DNA of 64,000 nt, taken from Thiobacillus sp. 65-29. Lineage in GTDB: Bacteria; Pseudomonadota; Gammaproteobacteria; Burkholderiales; Thiobacillaceae. Below are positions 1,713-20,990 of the stretch, piece by piece; positions within the stretch are counted from its first letter, which is position 1, and each line of letters opens with the position of its first letter. A program made the position numbers and the translations under genes. The stretch lies in contig MKWN01000023.1 of NCBI GenBank assembly GCA_001899775.1, forward strand, positions 1-64,000, given 5' to 3'. Below the pieces are notes generated by a model. That model was not told the origin of the DNA. It did no database searches and was given only the letters and a program-made list of their open reading frames with translations.

Positions 1713-2366
1713 TCACGGCACGATGAGGCTGAATACGGCGCCGCCATCGTTGGCGAGGCGCAACGCGCCGTGGCGACCACGGTTTTCGTGGGCCTCGGCG
1801 ATGAGACGGGCGAATTGCAGGCCCAGCCCGGTGCCGCGTGCCCGATAGGGCGTGCCATCGGCCAGGCTGGCCAGGATGTGCGCCGGAAACCCTTCCGAAT
1901 CATCGCGCACGCTGAACTCCAGGCAACCATCCTGCACGTCCGCCTCGATGCGAATGCCCGAGCGCGCGTAGACCAGCGAGTTGTGGACGGCATTGATCAG
2001 CGCCATCTCGACGAGGTCGCGATCGAAGAATCCGATGGGTGGAACGTCGGCGGTCACCTCGCTGACAACCTGGACGCGACCATGCGCCAGCCCTTCCGCG
2101 CGCCGGGTCAGCTCGTCGACGAGATCGTGGGGCGAATAGGCGTCGATGGTCGGGATCAGGCGCCCCTGATTGGCCTTGTAGACCAGCAGGGCCTGCTGCA
2201 GGCGCTCGACCACGCCCTGGCATTGCATGCGTGCGGCATCGAGTGCCGCGTCGCGCGTGGCGTCGCCGGTGTCGGGAATGGTGTCGAGGGTCATCGACAG
2301 CAGCCCGAGATTGTTCTTCAACTCGTGGATCAGGGCTGCGTAGAAATCGCTGTTGTCGCCACTCAT
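1713..2366 (-). CDS. Short histidine kinase without a sensor domain
   Basis: A 217-residue kinase of only a dimerisation/phosphoacceptor helix pair and an ATPase domain. The H-box is HELKNN with the histidine at residue 14, the N-box is NAVHNS, and the G2 box is GTGLGL. The G1 box reads DDSEGFP, so its first glycine is serine. There is no membrane segment or PAS/GAF domain, so the input must come from a partner. Its ATG overlaps the stop codon of the upstream response-regulator gene (ATGA), suggesting coupled synthesis and that this regulator is its partner. Whether it acts as kinase or phosphatase cannot be read from sequence. Confidence 0.85.
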   Translation of the reverse strand: MSGDNSDFYAALIHELKNNLGLLSMTLDTIPDTGDATRDAALDAARMQCQGVVERLQQALLVYKANQGRLIPTIDAYSPHDLVDELTRRAEGLAHGRVQVVSEVTADVPPIGFFDRDLVEMALINAVHNSLVYARSGIRIEADVQDGCLEFSVRDDSEGFPAHILASLADGTPYRARGTGLGLQFARLIAEAHENRGRHGALRLANDGGAVFSLIVP

Positions 2367-4024
2367 GCGTGCTTCCTGTGGATACCGAAGCGGCTCTCGA
2401 TTTCCCGCAGATGCAGGCGCAGGCCAGCCAGGCGCGGATGCCCCGGCGCCTGGCGTTCGGCCTCGCCGAGCTGGCGTCGCGCGGCCTCGATCATCGGCTC
2501 GTCCATGCCGGCCTGGTCGATGTGCTTGAGGATGACCCACACCGTGTTCATGCTGATGCGCGGGTTGAACGGTGCGGCTGTGCAGGCGGTGAGCAGCCTC
2601 TCCGCGGCGGTGCGGAAATCGCCCTTCTGCGCGAGCACGACACCCTCGTTGTTGAGCTTGCGTACGTCGGCGGTGGCGGAAGCGAGAACACTGCCGCCGG
2701 CGTCATCGCGCCCCGCGTCGGCGTAGATCTTGCGCGCCTTCGCCAGCAACGCGTCGCTGTCGTGCGCATTGCGGGCGACTTCGGCGACGACGGCATCGGC
2801 TTCGTCGAGGCGTCCGTTGGCCATGCAGGTACTCGCCAGGTCGAGCATGAGCTGGGGGTCGCCGTGCGCGCCGGCGGCACGCAGGCTGGCGACGCTGTCG
2901 AGCGTCTTCGCCGCTTCGGCCGACTTGCCCTCACGCGTGTAGGCCGCACTCTGCGTGACGGCCATCACCAGTTGGCCCTCGGGCGTCGCTTCCAGCGTGC
3001 GCTTGTTGAACTTGAGCGTGTTGGCCACGGCCTTGAGGTCGCCCTGTTGCAGCTGCACCCGGCACAGGTTGCCGTAGTCGGCGGGGGTGACGAAGACGGA
3101 GTGGCGACCCTTCTCGATGGCCTGGGTGCAGGCCGTCCGTGCGGTGTCGAGATCGCCGTTGTCGAACGCCACCTCACCCAGCTTCTGCTGCCGCCGCACC
3201 GTGCGCGCGGAAACGGCAACGCCCTGCTGCAAGGCCTCCTGCGCCGCTGCCGGATCTTTCTTCGCCAGACAGACATCGGCCAGCAGATCGTAGGCGGAGA
3301 CCATCTCCGGTGCATGTTCGAGGACATCGCGCAACTCTTCCTCGGCCGCCTCGTCCTTCTGCTGCAGGTGCAGGGCGCGCGCCAGCCCCAGACGCGCCCA
3401 CGGCACGGCACGCATGGCGATCACCTGCTTGTAGAGCGCCTCGGCTTCCTCGAAGCGCCCCATCGCATTGAGGATTTCGCCCTTGAAGCGTAAGGCATCG
3501 ATCGCATAGCGTGGCTGCTCGCGCATGAGCGCGTCGCATGCGTTGATCGCTGCTTCGAGCTGGCTTTCCTGGAAGTGCCGGTAGGCATCCGCGAAAGCCC
3601 GCTTGCGCAGCAGGATCGACACCAGCCGCGCGCACAGCACTTCGGCACTGAACGGCTTGATCATGTAGTCGTCCGGTGCGAGCTCCGCGGTGGCGACGAC
3701 TTTTTCATAAAAGGATTCGGCGGTGACCATCATGAACACGGTCTCCAGCGAAATGAGGTTGCTGTGGCGCAATTCCTCCAGCAACTGCTGACCGTCCCGG
3801 CCCTCGCCGAGATTGAAGTCGCACAGGATGAAATCGTAGGGTTTGTTGCGGATATGGAAGATCGCCTCGGCGGCGTTCGCGGCGAGCTGCACCTTGGTAA
3901 TGCCGAAATTGGAAAGCGTCAGCCGCAGCGCATTGCGCATGCCCGAGTAGTCGTCCACCACCAGTGCACGCAGCGCGCCAAAGTCGATAGCCGGTTTGCC
4001 GGCACCAGCCGGAGGGAATGCCAT
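2363..4024 (-). CDS. Response regulator with C-terminal TPR repeats
   Basis: A 553-residue protein: a CheY-like receiver domain at residues about 18-140 followed by a long TPR-type helical array. The receiver has the acidic pair D24-D25, the phosphorylation site D69 (in LCDFNLG), a T/S switch near 108 and the conserved lysine in MIKPF near 128. It has no DNA-binding domain, so it probably acts through protein contacts. I chose the ATG at 4024 over an in-frame TTG at 4060, because a 7-bp hairpin in the leader spans the region just before it. It heads a three-gene operon (regulator, kinase, PilZ protein) whose start matches a sigma-28 promoter at 4089-4115. Confidence 0.88.
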   Translation of the reverse strand: MAFPPAGAGKPAIDFGALRALVVDDYSGMRNALRLTLSNFGITKVQLAANAAEAIFHIRNKPYDFILCDFNLGEGRDGQQLLEELRHSNLISLETVFMMVTAESFYEKVVATAELAPDDYMIKPFSAEVLCARLVSILLRKRAFADAYRHFQESQLEAAINACDALMREQPRYAIDALRFKGEILNAMGRFEEAEALYKQVIAMRAVPWARLGLARALHLQQKDEAAEEELRDVLEHAPEMVSAYDLLADVCLAKKDPAAAQEALQQGVAVSARTVRRQQKLGEVAFDNGDLDTARTACTQAIEKGRHSVFVTPADYGNLCRVQLQQGDLKAVANTLKFNKRTLEATPEGQLVMAVTQSAAYTREGKSAEAAKTLDSVASLRAAGAHGDPQLMLDLASTCMANGRLDEADAVVAEVARNAHDSDALLAKARKIYADAGRDDAGGSVLASATADVRKLNNEGVVLAQKGDFRTAAERLLTACTAAPFNPRISMNTVWVILKHIDQAGMDEPMIEAARRQLGEAERQAPGHPRLAGLRLHLREIESRFGIHRKHA

Positions 4025-4051
4025 GTTCTTGCGATCCTGCGAAGAGTCCCC

Positions 4052-4069
4052 ACCGCACAATGGTGCGGT
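4052..4069 (-). other. Hairpin in the response-regulator leader
   Basis: A perfect 7-bp inverted repeat (ACCGCAC / GTGCGGT) with a four-base loop lies 28 bases upstream of the ATG and downstream of the predicted sigma-28 start site. It would form in the mRNA leader. It could affect translation or mRNA decay; no T-run follows, so it is not a terminator. Confidence 0.5.
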
Positions 4070-4088: not shown

Positions 4089-4115
4089 TTATCGGCATTT
4101 GGCGGCCAAACTGAA
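4089..4115 (-). promoter_or_regulatory. Sigma-28 (FliA) promoter of the regulator-kinase-PilZ operon
   Basis: Read on the minus strand, the -10 element is GCCGATAA (4096-4089), identical to the flagellar sigma-28 consensus. It is preceded at exactly 11 bases by TTCAGTTT (4115-4108), six of eight matches to TAAAGTTT. The expected start site is near 4081, giving a leader of about 57 bases. fliA is encoded in the same window at 15454-16164. This is a sequence match only. Confidence 0.72.
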
Positions 4116-4131: not shown

Positions 4132-4935
4132 TCAGGTGCCGCCGAGGCCAATCGTGTCCGCGAACGGGCGGCTCGGGTACTGAAACGCGACCGGACCGTC
4201 GGCGCGCGCGTGGACGAACTGGCGCACGAAGGGGTCGTCAGAATCGGCGATGCCTGCGGCCTCCCCCTCCGCGACGACGACGCCGTCATGGAGGAAATAG
4301 ACGTAGTCGGCCACCTTGAGCGACTCGGACACGTCGTAGGTCACCACCACCGAAGTCAGTCCAAGCGCATCGTTGAGGCGGCGCATGAGGCGGGCGATGG
4401 TGTTGAGCGAAATCGGATCGAGTCCGGCGAACGGTTCGTCGTACATGATGAACATCGGGTCGAGCGCGATCGCACGGGCCAGCGCGACACGCCGCTCCAT
4501 GCCGCCGGAGAGCTCCCCGGTGCGCAGATCGCGCGCACCACGCAGGCCGACCGCGTGCAGTTTCATCAGCACCAGGTCACGGATCACGTCCTCCGGCAGG
4601 TCGGTGTGCTCGCGCATCGGATAGGCGATGTTGTCGAATACCGAGAGATCGGTGAACAACCCGCTCACCTGGAACATCATGCCCATCTTGCGCCGCATGG
4701 CGTAGAGGGCGTCATTGCCGAGTTCGTGTACGACCTGGCCATTGAATTTCACGTGGCCGCGCGCCGGCTGCAGCTGCCCGCCGACGTGACGCAGGAGCGT
4801 GGTCTTGCCGCAGCCGCTGACCCCGAGGATGGCGACCAGCTTGCCGCGCGGAATGTCGAGATTCACCCCGCTCAGAACCGACCGCTCGCCGTAGGCAAAA
4901 TGCAGATCGCGGATCTCGACCAGGCGCTCGCTCAT
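4132..4935 (-). CDS. mlaF: MlaF-type phospholipid-transport ABC ATPase, orphan
   Basis: A 267-residue ABC ATPase with Walker A GVSGCGKT, signature LSGGM and Walker B MYDEPFAGLD. It ends in the MlaF-type tail with DGPVAFQYP (compare DGPVPF in E. coli MlaF). MlaF powers MlaE in retrograde glycerophospholipid transport to keep the outer membrane asymmetric. Two things are odd. The usual partners mlaE, mlaD, mlaC and mlaB are not beside it; instead its ATG lies one base after the sucB stop. And the H-loop histidine is a tyrosine (VVVTYDVSES). It could serve a permease encoded elsewhere. Confidence 0.85.
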   Translation of the reverse strand: MSERLVEIRDLHFAYGERSVLSGVNLDIPRGKLVAILGVSGCGKTTLLRHVGGQLQPARGHVKFNGQVVHELGNDALYAMRRKMGMMFQVSGLFTDLSVFDNIAYPMREHTDLPEDVIRDLVLMKLHAVGLRGARDLRTGELSGGMERRVALARAIALDPMFIMYDEPFAGLDPISLNTIARLMRRLNDALGLTSVVVTYDVSESLKVADYVYFLHDGVVVAEGEAAGIADSDDPFVRQFVHARADGPVAFQYPSRPFADTIGLGGT

Positions 4936-4936
4936 C

Positions 4937-6148
4937 TCAGTGCTCTTCCAGCAGCGCTTCCGGCGCTTCCAGCGCTGCCTTCACCGCGACCAGGAACTGC
5001 ACCGCGTCGCGGCCATCGATGAGCCGATGGTCGTAGGTGAGCGCGAGGTACATCATCGGACGGATCACCACCTGACCGTGCTCGGCGACGGGCCGCTCCT
5101 GGATGGCGTGCATGCCGAGTATGGCCGACTGCGGCGGGTTGAGAATGGGTGTGGACAGCAGCGAACCGAACACGCCGCCATTGGTGATGGAGAAGGTGCC
5201 GCCCGCGAGTTCTTCCAGGGTGAGTCGCCCGTCGCGCGCGCGGCGGGCAAAGTCGGCGATGGCCGCCTCGATCTGCGCCGAAGTCAGGGTCTGTGCGCGG
5301 CGCAGGATGGGCACCACCAGCCCGCGCGGTGTGGAAATGGCGATGCCGATATCGGCATCGTCGTGCCACACGACGTCGCCGCCGTCGATGGCGGCGTTGA
5401 CGATGGGAAACTGCTGCAGCGCCCCGCACACCGCCCGCACGAAGAAGGACATGTAGCCGAGCTTGACGCCGTGCCTCACTTCGAAATCGGCCTTGTAGCG
5501 CTGCCGCAGGGCGTTGACCGCAGCCATGTTCACCTCGTTGAAGGTGGTGAGCAGGGCGGCACCCTGCTGCGCCGCGACGAGGCGCTCGGCCACGCGCTGA
5601 CGCAAGCGTGACATCGGCTCGCGTTTAATCGGTGTGGGCATCACGTTCGCCCCCTCTCCCGCCCCGGGAGAGGGTTGGGGAGAGGGAGGCGAAGCCATCG
5701 GTGTGGGCATCACCCTCGCCCCCTCCCCCGCTGCACGAGCGGATGGCAGGGGACGCGGCTGAGTTGCGCGCATTGCAACGGGTGCGCCGGGCAAGCTGCC
5801 TTCACGCTCTCCTCCGCCTTTTCCCCTCGAAGGAGTTGGCGTTGTCCGCGCCGCATCAGCCGCTTTCGCCGGTCGAGGCGTTTCGGACGGCGTGCTCGCG
5901 GTGACGCTCTCGCCGGTCTCGATGACCGCGATGATTTCCTCGGCCGTAACCGAATCGCCTTCCAGCCGGGCGATCTCGACCAGGGTGCCGGACGCGGGAG
6001 CGGGTATTTCGAGGATCACCTTGTCGGTTTCGAGATCGACCAGGGTATCGTCGCGCGCGACGGTATCGCCGACCTGGCGGCGCCACGGCAACAGCGTGCC
6101 GCTGGCGACCGAATCCGACAGGGTGGGCACGCGTACCTCAACTCGCAT
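4937..6148 (-). CDS. sucB: Dihydrolipoyl succinyltransferase (E2 of 2-oxoglutarate dehydrogenase), E3-binding domain missing
   Basis: A 403-residue E2 protein. Residues 1-75 are a lipoyl domain with the lipoylated lysine in DLETDKV. The C-terminal catalytic domain begins around [13 protein letters not shown] and keeps the active-site [12 protein letters not shown]. Between them I find no peripheral-subunit-binding domain. The roughly 95 linking residues are low-complexity Pro/Gly/Ala sequence translated from palindromic repeats ([14 protein letters not shown] and relatives), as in the flhB tail. Overall length still matches the family. The ATG at 6148 overlaps the sucA stop by 11 bases; an upstream ATG at 6166 is possible but adds unlike sequence. 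No lpd gene for E3 lies in the window. Confidence 0.93.
5628..5760. repeat. Palindromic repeat cluster inside sucB
   Basis: A 9-bp perfect palindrome, CCCTCTCCC / GGGAGAGGG, lies at 5652-5660 and 5666-5674, followed by GGTTGGGGAGAGGG. Its flank, ATCGGTGTGGGCATCAC, is directly repeated at 5628-5644 and 5697-5713 (69-bp period), and the second unit has a decayed palindrome. The 5645-5686 element is nearly the same as 20157-20199 in flhB, differing mainly in the short loop. Both are translated in frame. Confidence 0.85.
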
Positions 6149-8834
6149 ACGGGGTCTCCAGCGCATCCTGGATCAGCGCTTCCAGCTCGGCGCGGTGACG
6201 CGACACGTAGCCCGAGGCCGGCGCCGCGGCCGGGGGGCGGCCGGCGTACTGGAAGCGCTGCCCTGCCGGCGTGCAATGGTTGAGATGGTGCAGCGTCTGG
6301 TACCAGGCGCCCTGGTTCATCGGTTCTTCCTGCGCCCAGATGAAGGTGGCAGCGTGAGGGTAGGCATGCAGGACTGCGCGCAGCGTGTCTTCGGGAAATG
6401 GATAGAGCTGCTCGATGCGCACCAGCGCGACCTCATCCAGCCTGCGTTCCGCACGGGCGGCCTCGAGATCGAACCACACGCGGCCGCTGCACGCGACGAC
6501 ACGCTTGGCCATGCGCGGTGCACGCGGGTCGTCGATGACCGGACGGAACGCACCCGCCGAGAGATCCGCGAGTGACGAGGTCGACGCGGGATGGCGCAGC
6601 AGGCTCTTCGGTGTGAGCACGACCAGCGGCTTGCGCGCCGGCCGCACGATCTGCCGACGCAACAGGTGGAACATCTGCGCCGGCAGCGTCGGCACGCATA
6701 CCTGGATGTTGTCCTGTGCGCACAGCTGCAGGAAGCGTTCGAGCCGCGCCGAGGAGTGTTCCGGTCCCTGGCCTTCGAAGCCGTGCGGCAACAGCAGCGT
6801 AAGACCGCACAGGCGGCCCCATTTCGCCTCGCCGCTGGTGATGAACTGGTCGATCACCACCTGCGCGCCGTTGGCGAAGTCGCCAAACTGCGCCTCCCAT
6901 ATCACCAGGGTGTCGGGGTCGGCGGTCGCGTAGCCGTACTCGAACGCGAGCACCGCCTCTTCCGACAGCATCGAGTCGATGACGGTGAAGCTGCCCTGGC
7001 GTTCGTGGATGTGTTCGAGCGGGATGTAAACGCCGCTCTGGCGCCGCTCGCGCTTCTGGTCGTGCCACACCGCATGACGGTGGAAAAAGGTGCCGCGCGC
7101 CGAATCCTGTCCCGACACGCGCACGCTGTGTCCGGCATCGAGCAGACTGGCGTAGGCCAGCGTCTCGGCATAGCCCCAGTCGACCGGCAGCGCGCCAGTA
7201 CGCATCCGGCGCCGGTCGTCGAGCACCTTCTGCACGCGCGGGTGCAGTTCGATTTCATACTCCAGCGTGGTGACGCGCTCGCCGAGAAAATCCAGGCGCG
7301 GGGCCGGCACGGCCGTCGGCACCTCGTCCGGGTTCCTGCTGCGAAAGCGTCCCCAATGCGTACCGAAGGTCTGCTTGAAGTCGGACGGTGCCGGCGGGCT
7401 CAGCGATTCGCCATGCTCCAGCCGATCGCGGCAGCGATCGACGAGATCGTCTACCTCCACTTGCGTCAGAATCCCCTCCTCGACCAAGCGCTGCGCATAC
7501 AGCACGCGCGTGCTCGGATGCGCGTTGATGCGCCGGTACATCAGGGGCTGCGTGGCGAGCGGTTCGTCCTGCTCGTTGTGACCGTGACGCCGGTAACACA
7601 CCAGGTCGATGAAGCAGTTCTTGTGAAAGGTGTAGCGGAAATCGACCGCGGTCTGTACCGCGAACGCGACAGCCTCCGGATCGTCGCCGTTGACGTGCAG
7701 TACCGGCGCCTCAACCATCTTGGCGACGTCGGTGCAATAAAGCGTCGAGCGTACGTCGCGCGGATCGGAGGTGGTGAAGCCGATCTGGTTGTTGACGACG
7801 ATGTGAATCGCACCGTTGTTGCGAAAGCCACGTGTCTGCGACATGTTGAGACTTTCCATCACCACGCCCTGCCCGGACAGCGCCGCGTCGCCGTGCAGAA
7901 TCACCGGCACCACCTCGTAGCCGAGTACGTCGCCGCGGCGATCCTGGCGTGCGCGCACCGAGCCGCGCACCACCGGATGCACGATCTCCAGATGCGAGGG
8001 ATTGAACGCCAGCGCAAGGTGCACTGGACCGTACTCGGTCGCGATGTCGGTGGAAAAGCCCAGGTGATACTTGACGTCACCCGACAGCGGGGTATCGGGA
8101 TCGCCATTGACCGGCTCGGCGTACAGGCTGTCGACGGTACGCCCCATGAGATTCACCAGCACGTTGATGCGCCCGCGATGCGCCATGCCCATCACGATTT
8201 CCTTCGCACCGTGGCGCGCGCAGCGGGCGATCACCAGATCGAGCAGGGGAATCAGGCTCTCGCCGCCTTCCAGCGAAAAGCGCTTCTGGCCGACATGACG
8301 GGTGTGGAGAAATTTTTCCAGTGTCTCGGCGTCGGTCAGGCGCTTGAGCAGTTGCTTCCTGAGTTCGGCCGGGACATCGAAGCGTCCCTGCGCGGATTCG
8401 ATGCGCTCCTGCAGCCAGCGCTTGCGTGCCACGTCGGTGATGTGCATGTACTCAAAGCCGATGCGCCCGCAGTAGGCGGTGCGCAAACGGTCGAGAATGT
8501 CGGCGAGCGTGGTCCGGTCAACGCCGCACAGCGAGCCGGTTTCGAACTCCCGTGCGAGATCGGCTTGGGTCAGACCGTAGTGCGCCGGATCGAGCTCGGG
8601 TGTGGGCGGCGGCTCGAAGCGGCGCAGCGGATCGAGGTCGGCCTTGCGCACGCCCAGATAGCGGTAGGCGTTGATGAGCCGCAGTACCGCGACCTGCGCA
8701 GTGTCGGCACAAGGCTGCTCGCCGGGCAGCGCTTGCGCCAGCCAGGGGGACAGGGTGTCGTCCACGAGCGTTTCCAGGTACGCCGTGTTGCCGGCATACA
8801 GGGGAGTGCTCCGGTACCAGTCGGGCGCGCTCAT
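6138..8834 (-). CDS. sucA: 2-Oxoglutarate dehydrogenase E1 component
   Basis: An 898-residue thiamine-diphosphate-dependent E1, close to the usual 930. It decarboxylates 2-oxoglutarate and passes the succinyl group to the lipoyl arm of SucB in the TCA cycle. Recognisable blocks include [13 protein letters not shown] (ThDP domain), [29 protein letters not shown] (ThDP/Mg binding) and the C-terminal [12 protein letters not shown]. The ATG at 8834 follows the gltA stop by 17 bases, and the 3' end overlaps sucB. It sits in a TCA series, maeB-sdhCDAB-sdhE-gltA-sucA-sucB, on the minus strand. Confidence 0.97.
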
Positions 8835-15453: not shown

Positions 15454-16164
15454 TCAGTCCTTCCAGACCTTGAGCTGGGCGCGCAGGCGTGCGACGGCCT
15501 GCGAATGCAGCTGGCACACGCGCGATTCGGAGACACCCAGTACCGCGCCGATTTCCTTGAGGTTCATGTCCTGTTCGTAGTACATGCCCATCATGCTGCG
15601 CTCGCGTTCCGGCAGGTGATGGATCGCGGCGATGAGGCTCGCGCGGAAGCCCTCGTCTTCCAGCAGGGCGAGCGGATCGCTGCTGCCGTCGACCAGATAG
15701 CGTTCCAGGAAACTCGCGCTGTCCTCGTCGGAAAAATCCTCGTAGTACAGGAGTTGCGAGCATTTCACGTCGCCCAGCATCGCCTGGTACTGGGCGATCG
15801 GCAGGCCGAGTTCGGCGGAGATTTCCTGTTCGCTCGGCGACTTGCCGTGACGCTGTTCCAGGCGGCTGATCGCCGCCTCGATCTGGCGCGACTTCTGCCG
15901 CACGTGGCGCGGCAGCCAGTCGGCCTCGCGCAGTTCGTCGAGCATGGCCCCGCGGATGCGCTGCGTGGCATAGGATTCGAATTGTGCACCCTGCGTGCCG
16001 TCGAAGCGCGCCACGGCATCCATCAGCCCAATGAGTCCGACCTGGATCAGGTCATCGACTTCGACGCTGGCGGGCAGGCGCGCCATCATGTGATACGCGA
16101 TGCGCTTGACCAGTGGCGCATACTTGGTGATCTGTTCGTCCTGGGACGAAGGCTTACCAGCCAT
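15454..16164 (-). CDS. fliA: Flagellar RNA polymerase sigma factor (sigma-28)
   Basis: A 236-residue FliA-family sigma factor. Region 2 (YAPLVKRIAYHMMARLP to QRIRGAMLDELREADWLPR), region 3 and region 4 (ALPERERSMMGMYYEQ-like block, then LKEIGAVLGVSESRVCQLHSQA helix-turn-helix) are complete. It directs transcription of late flagellar and chemotaxis genes from GCCGATAA-type promoters, one of which lies at 4089-4115 in this window. It follows the FlhG-like gene by 129 bases, the normal place for fliA in flhA-flhF-flhG-fliA clusters. Confidence 0.96.
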   Translation of the reverse strand: MAGKPSSQDEQITKYAPLVKRIAYHMMARLPASVEVDDLIQVGLIGLMDAVARFDGTQGAQFESYATQRIRGAMLDELREADWLPRHVRQKSRQIEAAISRLEQRHGKSPSEQEISAELGLPIAQYQAMLGDVKCSQLLYYEDFSDEDSASFLERYLVDGSSDPLALLEDEGFRASLIAAIHHLPERERSMMGMYYEQDMNLKEIGAVLGVSESRVCQLHSQAVARLRAQLKVWKD

Positions 16165-16293: not shown

Positions 16294-16938
16294 TCAACAA
16301 CGGGCACTCCGGCCCTTCTCCTCGCCGGCCATTCTAGCGGCAAGCGCGGCAAATGGCTCAACTTCCTCAGCAAAACACAAAACTTTACGCACGAAGGCGA
16401 TGTCGAGAAACCGGCTGCCTGCCTCCCGCAGGCGGCCGCAGGCGAACGCATCACCGATGAGACTCACCTTGCTGCCAGGCTGGCAAAGGGCGACGGTCTT
16501 CAGCAGGCGGAACGCCCGCTGCAATGCCCGGACTTCGGTTGGAGCATCGATGATCACATGATTCTCGGCTCCGGGCAGGGGCACCCATGCGTCGCAGGTG
16601 AAATCCGCGTCCAGCAGCACAGCGTCGTAGCGGGCGGCCACCGCGGCGATGCCTGCCGCATCCATCCGCAGACCGGGTGCGAGCCAGACGTCGCCGTGTG
16701 CCATCGCCAGCACGTTGAGCTGGCCCCGGGCCAGCTGCTGCGGCCCGTCGAAAAGGCTGTGCGCCGCTGTCGGTGCAGAATGGCGCGCGCCGGTCTCGAT
16801 GCGCAGCACGCGCCAGCCGTATCGATGCAAGGCCGCACCCAGCCGCTCGCCCGTCGTCGTTGCCAGGGAAAAACAGTGCAAGACGCAGGGCGTCTGGCCG
16901 GAGCGCCGCCGCAGCCCCGTTGCCTGGTCAGGCGGCAC
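16294..16938 (-). CDS. Degenerate FlhG/FleN-like protein lacking the P-loop
   Basis: A 214-residue protein in the place of flhG, between flhF and fliA. Residues 4-10 read DQATGLR, the DQAxxLR helix with which FlhG stimulates the FlhF GTPase. After it, where FlhG has the deviant Walker A (KGGxGKT), the sequence is HCFSLATTTGERLG, with no lysine or glycine-rich loop. A Walker-B-like strand remains (YDAVLLDADF, near residue 108), followed by weakly MinD-like sequence. I start it at GTG 16938, overlapping the flhF stop by 11 bases; no better start exists. It is shorter than FlhG (about 270-300). It probably cannot bind ATP or dimerise as FlhG does. A different, unrelated role is possible. Confidence 0.75.
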   Translation of the reverse strand: MPPDQATGLRRRSGQTPCVLHCFSLATTTGERLGAALHRYGWRVLRIETGARHSAPTAAHSLFDGPQQLARGQLNVLAMAHGDVWLAPGLRMDAAGIAAVAARYDAVLLDADFTCDAWVPLPGAENHVIIDAPTEVRALQRAFRLLKTVALCQPGSKVSLIGDAFACGRLREAGSRFLDIAFVRKVLCFAEEVEPFAALAARMAGEEKGRSARC

Positions 16939-18052
16939 GCGAGTCCCTTGCGGCGCGCTCGGCCTCGACGCCGGCAAACAGCGGCCAGTCGTCCGCGTCC
17001 AGCGTGTAGGGCGTGGCGAGTCGGGCGCCCTTGAGCGCGCGGTCGACGAGATAGGTCGCCTGGGGCAGGTGCAGATCTTCCGGCACCCGCTGGCCGGTGC
17101 AGACATATGCCAGCGGCAGGCGATGCCGGATCAGGCAATCCAGCGCCGCACCCGGTTGCGGCGTCTCGTCGAGCTTGGTGAGGACGCAGGCGGCCGCCCC
17201 CGTCCCGAAGCGGCTCACCGCCTGTTCCAGCGCCGCGCCCTGCAGGCCCGCGGCGATCACCGCGATGCGGCGCACGCCGAGCGCGTCGAGCGCCACCACG
17301 TCGCGCACGCGCGGATCCAGCGGCGCATGGCCGGCCGTGTCGATCAGCACCAGCTTCCTGGCGGCGAGCTGCGGCAACAGCGCCGTGAGTGTCGCCGCAT
17401 CCGGTGCGGCATGAACCGGAATGCCGAGCAGATCGGCATACACGGCAAGCTGCGCGCCAGCACCGACGCGCCAGGCATCCGCCGCAACCAGCGCAACGCC
17501 GGCGGCGCCGTGCACATCAACACCACGCGCGGCGAGCTTCGCGAGGGTCGTGGTCTTGCCCACACCGGTCGAACCGACCAGTGCCAGCACGCCACCCAGT
17601 GCGACCGGATCCGCGTTGCGCGGCAACACCGGCAGATTGCGAAGCAACACCTGGCGCAGCCAGCGCTGCGCGGCGTCGGCGTCCAGCCCGCGTGGCAGGC
17701 GTGCAGCGAGCGTGCGCGCCAGTGCACCACCGAAGCCCGCGGCGAACATTGTCTGCATCAGCGCCACCCGCACCGGGTCGCGCCGCCGCGCGCTGCCCCA
17801 GGCGAAGCCGGCAAGCTGGTTCTGCAACAGCCCACGCAGACGGTTCAACTCATGGAGAATGCGCGAGCTGCCCGGCAGTTCCGCCGCCTCGACCGGAGCG
17901 GGTGCCGCCAGTTCGCCATACGCGCTGGCGAGCAGTTCCACGCCCTGCGGGTGCGGTCGGGTCGACAGCACCACGGCATCGTCGCCAAGTTCGCGCCGCA
18001 CCCGCGCCAATCCCTCGCGCGCATTCGCCGCGACAAACATCCGCACGCTCAT
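16928..18052 (-). CDS. flhF: Flagellar SRP-family GTPase FlhF
   Basis: A 374-residue SRP-type GTPase that sets the place and number of polar flagella. The G1 loop is GSTGVGKTTT, G2 is in DAWRVG, G3 is DTAG and G4 is TKLD, all intact. The N-terminal basic region (MSVRMFVAANAREGL) and a divergent middle domain are as usual. The ATG overlaps the flhA stop (ATGA), and the 3' end overlaps the FlhG-like gene. FlhG normally both stimulates and restrains FlhF; here the partner has kept only the stimulating motif. Confidence 0.95.
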   Translation of the reverse strand: MSVRMFVAANAREGLARVRRELGDDAVVLSTRPHPQGVELLASAYGELAAPAPVEAAELPGSSRILHELNRLRGLLQNQLAGFAWGSARRRDPVRVALMQTMFAAGFGGALARTLAARLPRGLDADAAQRWLRQVLLRNLPVLPRNADPVALGGVLALVGSTGVGKTTTLAKLAARGVDVHGAAGVALVAADAWRVGAGAQLAVYADLLGIPVHAAPDAATLTALLPQLAARKLVLIDTAGHAPLDPRVRDVVALDALGVRRIAVIAAGLQGAALEQAVSRFGTGAAACVLTKLDETPQPGAALDCLIRHRLPLAYVCTGQRVPEDLHLPQATYLVDRALKGARLATPYTLDADDWPLFAGVEAERAARDSRAA

Positions 18053-20124
18053 GATGTCCCTCCGATCGTCAGTTCCGTCGTCACCTGCACCATTTTATCG
18101 GCGGGCACCTCGGCATAGGCAATGACGGCGAGCCGCGGCAGGTTGCGCCGCAGCAGACGCGACAGGATGGCGCGCAATCCGGGCGATGTGAGCAGCACCG
18201 CCGGGTGCCCCGCTTCCTCCTGTGCGACGAGCGTGCGCTCGGCCTCTTCGTTCAAGGCATCGAGCGTCGCCGGGCTGAGCAGCGCTTCGCCTTCGTCACC
18301 CATTTCGTCCAGCAGACGCGTCTCCGTCTCGGCCGCGAGGCCGATCACATGCAGCGTATCTGTGCCCTCGAACAGACGATCGACAATGCTGCGCCCGAGC
18401 GCGGCGCGCACCGTCTCGACCAGGTCTTCGATCGCCTGCGTGGTCGGCGCGCGTGCCGCGAGCGCTTCGAACAGGGTGCGACTGTCGCGGATCGACACGT
18501 TTTCCGCGATGAGCTGCTGCAGGATGGTCTGCACGCTGGTAAGCGGCAGATGGCGCGGTGTCACGTCCTCGACCAGACCGGGCTGGTTGCGCACGAGCGT
18601 GTCGAGCAGTTGCTGCACCTCGCTGCGCCCGAGCAGTTCCGGCGCGTGCTGACGAAACACCGCCTCGACCTCGCGGGCGAGCAGATCCGCCGGCTGCAGG
18701 ACCACGAAGCCGCGCAGTTCCGCTTCCTCCACCCGCTCCGCCTCGATCCAGATTCCCGCGAAACCCGTCAGCGGGTCGGCACCCACAATGCCGTCGAGAC
18801 GGCCCAGCACGTCGCCCATGTCGACGGCGAGTACCTGTCCGGGCGGCAATTCGCCGTGCGCGACATCGACGCCCTTCAGCGTGATGCGGTAAGCGTTCGG
18901 CTTGAGGTCCAGGTTGTCGCGCACCCGTACCAGCGGCACCACCAGGCCCATGTCGGCGGCGAAACGTCGCCGCGCCTCGGTGATGCGCGCCAGCGCCACG
19001 CCGCCATGGGCACGGTCGACCAGCGGAATGAGGCGATAGCCGACTTCCAGCGCGAGCACATCGACCGGCGGGATGTCGTCCCAGGTGAGATCGAGCGGCG
19101 CGGGTGTCTCGTCGATCACTTCCAGCGGCTCGACCTCGAGTGCTGCGCGCTGCTGGCGTGTCAGCCACAGGCCGACGCCACCCAGCAGTGCCGCGATCAG
19201 CAGAAACGCCACGTGCGGCGTGCCGGGAATCAGGCCCAGCACGGCCAGCACGCTCGCGGCGACGAACAGCGTCTGCGGCCGGCCAAAGACCTGCGCGGAA
19301 AACTCGCGGCTGAGATCCTGCTCGCTCGATGCGCGACTCACCACGATGCCTGCCGCGGTGGAAATCACCAGCGCGGGAATCTGCGCCACCAGGCCGTCCC
19401 CGACGGTCAGCAGTGCGTAGCGGCCCAAGGCCTCGGTGAGCCCGAGCTGGTGCTGAAACACGCCCACCAGAATTCCGCCGATGAGGTTGACCACCAGGAT
19501 GATCATGCCGGCGATCGCATCGCCGCGCACGAATTTCGAGGCACCATCCATCGCCCCGTAAAAATCGGATTCGCGGCTGATTTCCGTGCGCCGCGTGCGT
19601 GCCTCCACCTCGGAGATGAAACCCGCATTGAGATCGGCATCCACCGCGAGCTGCTTGCCCGGCATCGAATCGAGCGTGAAGCGCGCCGCCACCTCGGCGA
19701 TGCGTCCGGCACCCTTGGTGATCACGACGAAATTGATGATGACGAGGATCAGGAATACCACGAAGCCGACGGTGTAATTGCCGCCGACCAGGAAATTGCC
19801 GAACGACTCGATCACCTTGCCCGCCGCGTCCGGCCCCGTATGGCCCTGCATCAGAATGATGCGGGTGGATGCAACGTTGAGCGCCAGGCGCAGCAGCGTG
19901 GTCAGCAGAAGCACGGTCGGAAAGACCGAGAAATCCAGCGGCCGGCGCGCGTTCAGGCTCACCAGCAGCACGATCATCGCCAGTGCGATGTTGAGCGTGA
20001 ACAGCACGTCGAGCATGAAGGTGGGCAGCGGCAACACCATCATCGCCAGGATCAGCAGCACCAGCATCGGCACCGCCAGCCGCTGCACCGGCATGCCCAT
20101 CACCATCACCCCCTGCGCACTCAC
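18049..20124 (-). CDS. flhA: Flagellar type III export gate protein FlhA
   Basis: A 691-residue export-gate protein of normal length and apparently intact: about eight N-terminal membrane helices, then a large cytoplasmic domain. The FHIPEP signature region reads DSMPGKQLAVDADLNAG, and the charged loop RRTEISRESDFYGAMDGASKFV follows. It binds substrate-chaperone complexes and uses the proton motive force for export. It begins with GTG, overlapping the stop of the shortened flhB (GTGA), and its stop overlaps flhF. Confidence 0.96.
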   Translation of the reverse strand: MSAQGVMVMGMPVQRLAVPMLVLLILAMMVLPLPTFMLDVLFTLNIALAMIVLLVSLNARRPLDFSVFPTVLLLTTLLRLALNVASTRIILMQGHTGPDAAGKVIESFGNFLVGGNYTVGFVVFLILVIINFVVITKGAGRIAEVAARFTLDSMPGKQLAVDADLNAGFISEVEARTRRTEISRESDFYGAMDGASKFVRGDAIAGMIILVVNLIGGILVGVFQHQLGLTEALGRYALLTVGDGLVAQIPALVISTAAGIVVSRASSEQDLSREFSAQVFGRPQTLFVAASVLAVLGLIPGTPHVAFLLIAALLGGVGLWLTRQQRAALEVEPLEVIDETPAPLDLTWDDIPPVDVLALEVGYRLIPLVDRAHGGVALARITEARRRFAADMGLVVPLVRVRDNLDLKPNAYRITLKGVDVAHGELPPGQVLAVDMGDVLGRLDGIVGADPLTGFAGIWIEAERVEEAELRGFVVLQPADLLAREVEAVFRQHAPELLGRSEVQQLLDTLVRNQPGLVEDVTPRHLPLTSVQTILQQLIAENVSIRDSRTLFEALAARAPTTQAIEDLVETVRAALGRSIVDRLFEGTDTLHVIGLAAETETRLLDEMGDEGEALLSPATLDALNEEAERTLVAQEEAGHPAVLLTSPGLRAILSRLLRRNLPRLAVIAYAEVPADKMVQVTTELTIGGTS

Positions 20125-20990
20125 CCGATCACCTCATTAATCGTTTTGGGCCCAGCGTTCGCCCCCTCTCCCGCTTGTGGGAGAGGGTTGGGGAGAGGGT
20201 CCGTTTTTGGCCCAGCGTTCGCCCCCTCCCCGCTTTGCAACGAAGCGCCCACCCCTCCCCGCGCCGCCTGCTCCTGCCGCGCGCGCACCTGCGCCTGCAC
20301 CTCGGCCGGCAGTTCGGCTTCGCGCGCCTCGGCCAGCACTTCCTGACGGGTCATCGCGTGACGCCGCAGATAACGCCACCAGCGCCAGCCGGCATCCAGC
20401 GCCGCGGCCAGCGTCAGCGCGAGTGCCACCGCCATCACACCCTCGCCCACCCATGCGGCGAATGCGTGCAGCGTCGTCCCGCCATCCGCTGCCGGCAATG
20501 CACTCCAGCCGTTTTCCAGCGCCCAGGCGACTGCACCGGCGACCAGCAGCAGTTTCAGTGCCGTGAGAAAAACATCGAACCACGCATCCTGTGACAGCAG
20601 GCGTGCAACGGGTTTGAAGGGTGAGGCACGCGTGAAGTCGGCCCGCGTCGCCTGTGGAGCGAAGGTCCAGCCCGACAGCAGCAGCGGCGCCACGAGCGCG
20701 GCGACGAAGAGCGCCACCAGAAGCGGCAGCAGAACGAGCAGAAGGTCGAGCACCGGGTGCAGGAGATCCATACCCAGCGGCGCCGCCGCCTGCCGCAGCG
20801 CCAGCGTGGTCAGCGTCTCGAAACCAGTGAGCACGCGCTGCGCCAGCCAGCCCAATACCCCCAGCCCGGCAAGCAACACCACCCAGCGCGCGAATTCAGC
20901 GGAGCGCGGCACGTCACCCGCGTTGCGCGCCGTCTGAAGCCGGCGCGGGGTCGCAGGCTCGCTGCGGGAAAGATCGGTCTCCTCGGCCAT
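20121..20990 (-). CDS. flhB: FlhB, C-terminally truncated, with a repeat-encoded tail
   Basis: A 289-residue FlhB (family about 350-390). The membrane part is present: the start SEPATPRRLQTARNAGDVPRS, four hydrophobic segments and the linker start MTRQEVLAEAREAE. After RARQEQAARGG the sequence becomes Gly/Pro/Asn-rich and comes from two repeat units (GEGANAGPKT appears twice), then ends. The cytoplasmic domain with the NPTH autocleavage site, which switches export from hook to filament, is missing, and no remnant of it lies nearby. The stop still overlaps the flhA GTG. The frame is open and not obviously decaying, so I list it as a CDS. An assembly error at the repeat is possible. Confidence 0.85.
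   Translation of the reverse strand: MAEETDLSRSEPATPRRLQTARNAGDVPRSAEFARWVVLLAGLGVLGWLAQRVLTGFETLTTLALRQAAAPLGMDLLHPVLDLLLVLLPLLVALFVAALVAPLLLSGWTFAPQATRADFTRASPFKPVARLLSQDAWFDVFLTALKLLLVAGAVAWALENGWSALPAADGGTTLHAFAAWVGEGVMAVALALTLAAALDAGWRWWRYLRRHAMTRQEVLAEAREAELPAEVQAQVRARQEQAARGGVGASLQSGEGANAGPKTDPLPNPLPQAGEGANAGPKTINEVIG
20141..20260. repeat. Palindromic repeat pair forming the flhB 3' end
   Basis: Two units about 60 bp apart share TTTTGGGCCCAGCGTTCGCC-like flanks (near 20145 and 20205). The first contains the perfect palindrome CCCTCTCCC / GGGAGAGGG and GGTTGGGGAGAGGG (element 20157-20199); the second is degenerate. It is the same family as the cluster inside sucB at 5628-5760. Confidence 0.85.

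Follow-up and report, generated by a model that had tools for sequence, protein, structure and literature searches.

The membrane part of the flagellar export protein FlhB wraps the FliPQR gate (PMC7064499), and a 2026 study has recast the C-terminal domain of the protein, FlhB-CCD, as an inhibitor whose removal is required for export switching (PMC13344023). That study reports that Salmonella strains without FlhB-CCD (through a stop at 258 or a deletion of residues 270-383), Flk and all rod-hook genes carry out late secretion without FliK, and that loss of FlhB-CCD stops early (FlgE) secretion; when FlhB-CCD and Flk are lost, and with overexpression, an FlgM fusion is exported without hook or FliK (PMC13344023). 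Here we describe flhB2 of Thiobacillus sp. 65-29, which encodes an FlhB without the C-terminal autocleavage/switch domain (hereafter, C-less FlhB). The gene lies at positions 20121..20990 (minus strand) of the window, the stretch of 64,000 nucleotides of contig MKWN01000023.1 (here C23) that was analyzed. We propose that flhB2 is part of a second gene set (set 2) predicted to encode a switchless flagellar export gate locked in its late state, perhaps an FlgM/sigma28 signalling device, and we put the probability of this reading at roughly 0.6.

Set 2 has the same FlhB membrane part, N terminus and FlhB-CN as the Salmonella flagellar gate, as well as the same partners (FlhA, FliP-Q-R, FliH-I-J, FliF and FliG). 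In contrast to that gate, FlhB2 has neither NPTH nor FlhB-CCD, and the 11 genomes whose sole FlhB match is C-less (C-less-only genomes) yielded no FliM/FliN or flagellin and, in 10 cases, no rod/hook gene. Like the Salmonella late-locked mutants, set 2 combines the loss of FlhB-CCD with a lack of rod and hook genes (in those 10 flagellin-less genomes, where FliK was not searched for), and its FlhB is cut at nearly the same place (stop 258 in Salmonella, a core end at ~253 here). The Salmonella state is, however, a laboratory one that depends on hyperactive flhDC (PMC13344023), whereas the Thiobacillus set is natural and conserved and comes with its own FlhA, FliI, FliP, FliA and FlgM. Lysobacter enzymogenes OH11 also has flagellar export genes without a flagellum, and its gate exports foreign flagellin; its genes form no operon (PMC7277350), whereas set 2 consists of two compact operons and includes a C-less FlhB. 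The strings "truncat" and "NPTH" do not occur in the main text of that paper. Legionella oakridgensis likewise keeps sigma28 and FlgM without a flagellum, but its flagellar regulon is missing and its FlgM seems degraded (PMC5655016), whereas Thiobacillus keeps the export gate. Our searches of the open PubMed Central (PMC) literature, including one on Thiobacillus with flagellar type III secretion and FlhB, turned up no description of set 2; the parts are known, and their combination was not found described in those searches.

An earlier reading of the window from its letters alone (the sequence-only reading) had noted a flhB frame of 289 residues without the autocleavage domain, and family and structure comparisons bore this out. 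The Pfam family Bac_export_2 (PF01312) matches residues 9-247 of FlhB2 to positions 3-244 of a 335-position profile (150 bits; cut-off, 24.4), and because the match stops at profile position 244, the C-terminal part, where the domain with NPTH would lie, is missing. The conserved core, residues 1-244 (20259..20990, minus strand), holds the transmembrane part and the FlhB-CN helices according to structure-chain alignment. It aligned to residues 1-253 of a 383-residue FlhB chain from the PDB, ahead of the N269/P270 cleavage site (numbering from PMC13344023), and across three solved FlhB chains the alignment ended at residue 253, 259 or 263, each time before the cleavage site. The membrane domain with FlhB-CN is thus retained by both the PF01312 match and the solved chains. 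FlhB2 scored 120.2 bits against the FlhB equivalog TIGR00328 (cut-off, 349.25) and 83.8 bits against TIGR01404, the equivalog for the injectisome protein SctU (cut-off, 358); by these scores it is an FlhB relative that falls short of both equivalogs. An AlphaFold model built with 28 sequences has helices to residue 254 followed by a disordered tail, at modest confidence (mean predicted local distance difference test score, 64.5; predicted template modelling score, 0.34).

FlhB2 is not the flagellar FlhB of Thiobacillus sp. 65-29 and is a member of the second gene set. The genome (2.9 Mb in 61 contigs, 99.99% complete) contains three PF01312 matches, namely, a full FlhB on contig C47, FlhB2 in the window and a stand-alone C-domain on contig C10, along with two copies each of FlhA and FliP. 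Contig C47 has the order flhD-flhC-(methyltransferase)-motA-motB-flhB-flhA-flhF-flhG-fliA, with another two mot-like genes; on C10 are fliC-flaG-fliD-fliS, a fliK-like gene, the C-domain gene and, further along, fliE-to-fliR genes (names on both contigs were assigned by eye unless a family score is cited). Flagellin and hook genes, which the sequence-only reading had proposed looking for, are both present: within the genome, flagellin-type matches (PF00669) fall only on C10 and C5, rod/hook matches (PF00460) only on C5, and FliM/FliN matches (PF01052) only on C10. The earlier suggestion that the flagellum is being lost did not hold, as the cell has a full second flhB, flhA and fliP together with flagellin, rod/hook and FliM/FliN genes. 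An intact second flhB, which that reading had named as a finding that would refute it, does exist, and as regards the flagellum it does count against that reading; the truncation of the window gene stands. We also rejected the possibility that an intact flhB nearby supplies the other half of flhB2, given that the full-length flhB is a separate gene on C47. Since the axial and FliM/FliN matches lie off C23, the window genes form part of another set, one for which no axial genes of its own were found.

The window part of set 2 runs flhB-flhA-flhF-(flhG)-fliA, and a second fliF-fliG-fliH-fliI-fliJ-X-fliO-fliP-fliQ-fliR block lies on C23 at ~160 kb from these genes. The flhA2 gene (18049..20124, minus strand) encodes a full-length FlhA of 691 residues, as the sequence-only reading had stated; the protein passes the FlhA threshold (804.6; cut-off, 772.1) and stays below the one for SctV (593.3; cut-off, 692.25). 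The remaining window genes are flhF2 (16928..18052, minus strand; TIGR03499 over cut-off), a gene in the flhG position (16294..17106, minus strand; start unsure) and fliA2 (15454..16164, minus strand), whose sigma28 product is 58% identical to FliA1 (TIGR02479 and PRK06986 over cut-off). The flhG-position gene, named from its position and its relatives, had no NCBIfam match; its product did not match FlhG1 in the paralogue comparison and may have lost the ATPase signature. Identities between set 1 and set 2 paralogues range from 27% (FlhB) to 69% (FliI). This genome gave Pfam matches over cut-off for FliF, FliG, FliH, FliI, FliJ, FliR, FlhA and FliP; those for FliO and FliQ came from its relative G077. 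Set 2 therefore comprises the flagellar type III export core (FliF, FliH, FliI, FliJ, FliP, FliQ, FliR and FlhA), and it is not a bacterial flagellum in the sense of having its own rod/hook, flagellin and FliM/FliN genes.

To describe how widespread C-less FlhB is, we searched 100 Thiobacillaceae genomes with PF01312. C-less FlhB, with matches ending at profile positions 238-248 of 335 and frames of 254-310 residues, occurred in 48 genomes: 37 of 39 in Thiobacillus, 8 of 9 in genus g6, 3 of 3 in genus g12 and 0 of 49 in other genera, a few of which had FlhB fragments only. The two Thiobacillus genomes without it are 79% and 75% complete, and T. thioparus DSM 505 is among the carriers of the set 2 form. 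An order-level search (399 genomes, 279 matching) returned C-less forms among its best rows only from five Thiobacillaceae (at least 347 bits); all other best rows had at most 215 bits and frames of at least 356 residues, and weaker C-less relatives would fall outside these best rows. In one g6 genome (G016; C54, L052), we observed flagellin, rod/hook and FliM/FliN matches with no full-length FlhB listed among two PF01312 matches, which reflects either an assembly gap or a flagellum with a C-less FlhB.

Flagellin was present alongside C-less FlhB in 36 of the 48 genomes. The 11 C-less-only genomes, by contrast, all lacked flagellin matches, compared with 1 of the 37 others (G099, 84% complete). 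FliM/FliN was found in 0 of these 11, although 7 of 7 flagellated genomes tested alongside were positive, and the rod/hook family PF00460 was absent from 10, with two matches in the eleventh (G049). FliF was detected in 10 of the 11 and not found in G049. We read the fliF-to-fliR block in G064, G085, G077, G098, G055, G052, G005 and G039 and partly in G006 and G032. The flagellin-less genomes G085, G077 and G052 each had scores for all ten genes, and a longest-frame rule hid some genes in other genomes. No second PF01312 match of any kind occurred in the 11 genomes, and NPTH followed by Y or F was absent from all six frames of the 1,557,543 bases of flagellin-less genomes covered, which are a part of them. 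Because the set is kept where no flagellin was found, it probably has a job other than tail building.

We then compared the genes of set 2 between genomes. In the six lowest-pS pairs for each of eight set 2 genes, the ratio of nonsynonymous to synonymous substitution rates (dN/dS, by Nei-Gojobori) was 0.04-0.42, with the lowest values in FliA, FliI and FlhA; some frames begin ahead of the real start codon, and some of the values are inflated as a result. For every one of the eight genes, the proportion of nonsynonymous differences (pN) in the listed pairs was well under that of synonymous differences (pS), and the frames were intact. For seven of the genes, these pairs include some in which both genomes are flagellin-less; for FlhB, at most one member of a pair is. 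The second set is under purifying selection. We built a quick tree from 36 FlhA rows, in which the 17 rows of FlhA2 formed one side of a branch with a long stem (Shimodaira-Hasegawa-like approximate likelihood ratio test, 100), and each genus grouped within that side; the root is unsure, given that the outgroup did not hold together, and 7 of 43 loci without an adjacent FlhA in the piece at hand were left out. We read the set as old and inherited within the family rather than as a recent copy, a view that draws on this tree.

These data bear on the idea that set 2 is a decaying relic, an old second flagellar set on its way out after losing the axial genes and the flhB 3' end. In its favour, we found no rod, hook or C-ring genes belonging to set 2, divergence is quicker in FlhB2, FliF2 and FliG2 than in FlhA2 and FliA2, and the FlhB2 tail accepts repeats (see below). 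Yet the frames are intact with pN well under pS in all eight genes, nearly every Thiobacillus genome keeps the set (the two exceptions being the incomplete ones), and it persists where main-flagellum genes were not found. Decay is an unlikely account of this pattern.

As we picture it, FlhB2 is a genuine FlhB under selection and belongs to an old, flagellum-derived apparatus made of a FliF ring, FliG, the FliH-I-J ATPase, FliO-P-Q-R, FlhA, FlhF and FliA2. It keeps the gate-closing membrane part and FlhB-CN, and it has lost FlhB-CCD, which is the early-substrate dock and the switch. As the dock is gone and no early substrates were found, there would be nothing to switch between, and the gate would be permanently "late," like that of the Salmonella mutants without FlhB-CCD and Flk. 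Retention of the N-domain by itself would make sense given how the membrane part of FlhB wraps around FliPQR. The putative substrate of set 2, which we name with less confidence, is FlgM2, a second copy of the late substrate FlgM, and its export would release FliA2; with similarly reduced confidence, the machine may be a signalling or secretion device and not a tail builder. A fuller version, in which the late-locked gate of a flagellum-less device exports FlgM2 across the inner membrane and so frees FliA2 for a nonflagellar regulon, perhaps including type IV pilus or polar-hub genes, is tentative, and we would sooner bet against it than for it. The sequence-only reading had listed export without the switch as one of three options; it is the best fit of the three, with export itself still a prediction.

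The genes for a sigma28/FlgM checkpoint are present: FliA2, FlgM2 and a promoter-like box 5' of flgM2. The flgM2 gene lies at C23:212427-212591, and both its product and the FlgM2 of G064 exceed the cut-off of the NCBIfam FlgM model (TIGR03824); FlgM2 and FlgM1 share 35 positions over about 100. Two FlgM matches (PF04316) were found in each of 7 flagellated genomes tested, and the 11 C-less-only genomes had one copy in nine cases, two in G049 and none in G032. Sigma28-type boxes of the form TAAxGTTT/TAAAGAAT-N11-GCCGxxAA score at least 21 upstream of flgM2 in 13 of 15 loci, but the scores of 12 of these are not independent because the promoter matrix was trained on them. The thirteenth (L188) scores 23.3; as for the other two loci, L183 scores 16.9 and L190 is not among the best 80 of 84 hits. 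Homologues of one GGDEF/EAL-type protein lie near flgM2 in 14 of the 15 loci. A strict pattern that predated the flgM2 loci revealed no sigma28 promoter ahead of fliF2 or flhB2, and the region upstream of flhB2 contains a conserved TGCTAGACTC-like box.

Several points weigh against the late-locked reading. The case for FlgM2 as a substrate, in which we have less confidence, is one of co-occurrence only, and PF04316 also matched 4 of 14 control genomes, three over the cut-off and one below it. The negatives for axial genes exclude FliE, MotA/B and FliK, which were not searched for genome-wide in the flagellin-less genomes, and just 5 of the 11 C-less-only genomes reach 90% completeness with contamination no higher than 5%. 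The rod/hook matches of G049 lie on the same contig as an FlgM, and this genome may be an incomplete flagellated one. In Salmonella, CCD-less FlhB is reported to work well only with hyperactive flhDC, and a flk+ allele restores the block on late secretion (PMC13344023). Finally, the chaperone site of FlhA2, described next, is altered, and the gate may as a result not handle classical late substrates.

The late-chaperone site of FlhA2 is remodelled in the window gene, with T at the F459 place and R at the T490 place. All 50 of the distinct FlhA2 rows with 600 residues or more have D (46) or E (4), then T, S, M or A at the F459 place and R at the T490 place, whereas all 19 FlhA1 rows have D, then F or Y at the F459 place and T at the T490 place. 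By this comparison the site was altered and has since been kept in the altered state. In Salmonella, the FlhA substitution F459A is reported to lower the secretion of FlgK, FlgL and FliC when FliH and FliI are present and to raise export when they are not (PMC5789064).

The remodelled site also suits another account, in which the gate serves a dedicated nonflagellar substrate, or helps type IV pili or intercellular structures, instead of exporting FlgM2. Twitching in Lysobacter enzymogenes, for instance, is reported to use FlhA, FlhB, FliI and FliR (PMC7277350). We scanned 1,444,299 bases of five flagellin-less genomes for sigma28 promoters, and after flgM2 the best sites precede a FimV/HubP-family gene (G085; L222, near 11954, minus strand; score, 20.9) and a prepilin gene (G005; L210, 12333, plus strand; score, 19.0). 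Among 1066 upstream regions from 60 stretches, 4 score at least 16, compared with 0.67 on average over 30 resamplings and 1 on the antisense strand. Such hits are few and come from one genome each, and we treat the pilus and polar-hub promoters as a lead only. The neighbours of both set 2 operons are ordinary housekeeping genes as far as read, with no candidate substrate recognized among them. A dedicated nonflagellar client, or a role in pili or intercellular structures, appears rather unlikely. Within the window itself, a sigma28-like box with GCCGATAA (position 4115, minus strand; score, 15.1) lies upstream of the open reading frame at 2363-4060, ahead of a response-regulator-like gene.

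Set 2 might instead be a mere accessory of the main flagellum, helping, for example, to place or regulate it through FlhF, the flhG-position gene and FliA2. The flhF and sigma28 copies in the set fit this idea, as does the frequent company of flagellin (36 of 48 genomes), but the set is kept in genomes in which flagellin, FliM/FliN and, with the exception of G049, rod/hook genes were not found, and we consider the accessory role improbable.

Helicobacter HP1575 is a "spare part" FlhB C-domain, and the names FlhX and FhlB stand for similar proteins; these cases resemble set 2 in that parts of FlhB are separated, and differ in that the C-domain stands alone there, whereas FlhB2 is the N-domain alone. 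The stand-alone C-domain that the sequence-only reading had envisaged elsewhere in the genome does exist (C10:60218-60445; frame of ~99-100 residues at L007:10198-10497), lacks NPTH and resembles TIGR00789 below its cut-off. That it supplies the missing domain to FlhB2 in trans is nevertheless highly improbable: the gene adjoins fliC-fliD-fliS and a fliK-like gene of the main flagellum, the C-less-only genomes have no such second match, and several genera without flhB2 also have the C-domain among the matches listed.

The sequence-only reading had also seen the flhB frame run into two repeat units and stop on the GTG of flhA, and both observations stand. The 30-nt units, each translated as GEGANAGPKT, lie at 20142..20171 and 20202..20231 (minus strand) and are 93% alike; their 20-nt core occurs only at those two sites in the window (at most 3 mismatches), where 0.02 would be expected by chance. 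The stop of flhB2 overlaps the GTG start of flhA2, and GAGGTG is found at this junction in 29 of 30 loci of the genus. Just upstream, GAGGTGATC (20127..20135, minus strand), the likely Shine-Dalgarno sequence of flhA2, codes for the conserved EVI of the FlhB2 end. We considered a protein function for this DEVIG end and rejected it, the flhA2 ribosome-binding site being the simpler reading.

All 30 loci of the genus are C-less. In 14 of them, FlhB2 has no tail beyond the core and a VDEVIG-type end, and the shortest forms terminate in RQQQAGQ-R-VDEVIG. Sixteen loci encode at most 258 residues. A pattern search found a repeat-like tail in 11 of the 30, and the other 5 have short or diverged tails, some like repeat remnants. 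Eight FlhB2 proteins measured from g6 and g12 have 248-261 residues. Given the tail-less forms in the genus and the short forms in g6 and g12, the short end looks ancestral. Relatives without the repeat share the truncation; it therefore does not stem from a repeat that collapsed, and the repeat did not bring it about. Assembly collapse was rejected on the same 30 loci, which include the single-contig genome G040, and a second single-contig genome, G046, also has a C-less FlhB (read in L059). By this comparison, the repeat is a later insertion between the old core end and the flhA2 ribosome-binding site and is not the cause of the truncation. The paralogous set, the age of the C-less trait and the later insertion were not visible to the sequence-only reading because the window alone was read.

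Other features of the fliF-to-fliR block deserve mention. A conserved protein of ~154 residues, which we call FliX, occupies the FliK-FliN place (L127:9604-10068, with the same place in other loci; the G000 copy lies within L016 11810-12454, minus strand) and had no Pfam, NCBIfam or PDB match. The torque-helix residues of FliG2 look altered, with their numbering unsettled. Two g6 genomes have ~2.6-2.8 kb between fliQ2 and fliR2 (L116, ~5150-7929; L129, ~4409-6979), genes that touch in G052 (L126), and in G012 FliF2 and FliG2 form one fused frame of 721 residues (L118:5674-7839).

It is not settled how much of a flagellar export gate can go before selection ceases to retain the rest. A gate that is natural and conserved and lacks FlhB-CCD, and that in several genomes also lacks detectable early substrates or a flagellum, offers an independent natural test of the model in which this domain is an inhibitor. 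The model proposed here is testable in cultured Thiobacillus. Set 2 is also a case in which the organelle seems to have disappeared but the gate, sigma28 and FlgM have all been retained; if the fuller, tentative signalling version is true, the activity of the gate (proton motive force, ATPase) would itself be the signal.

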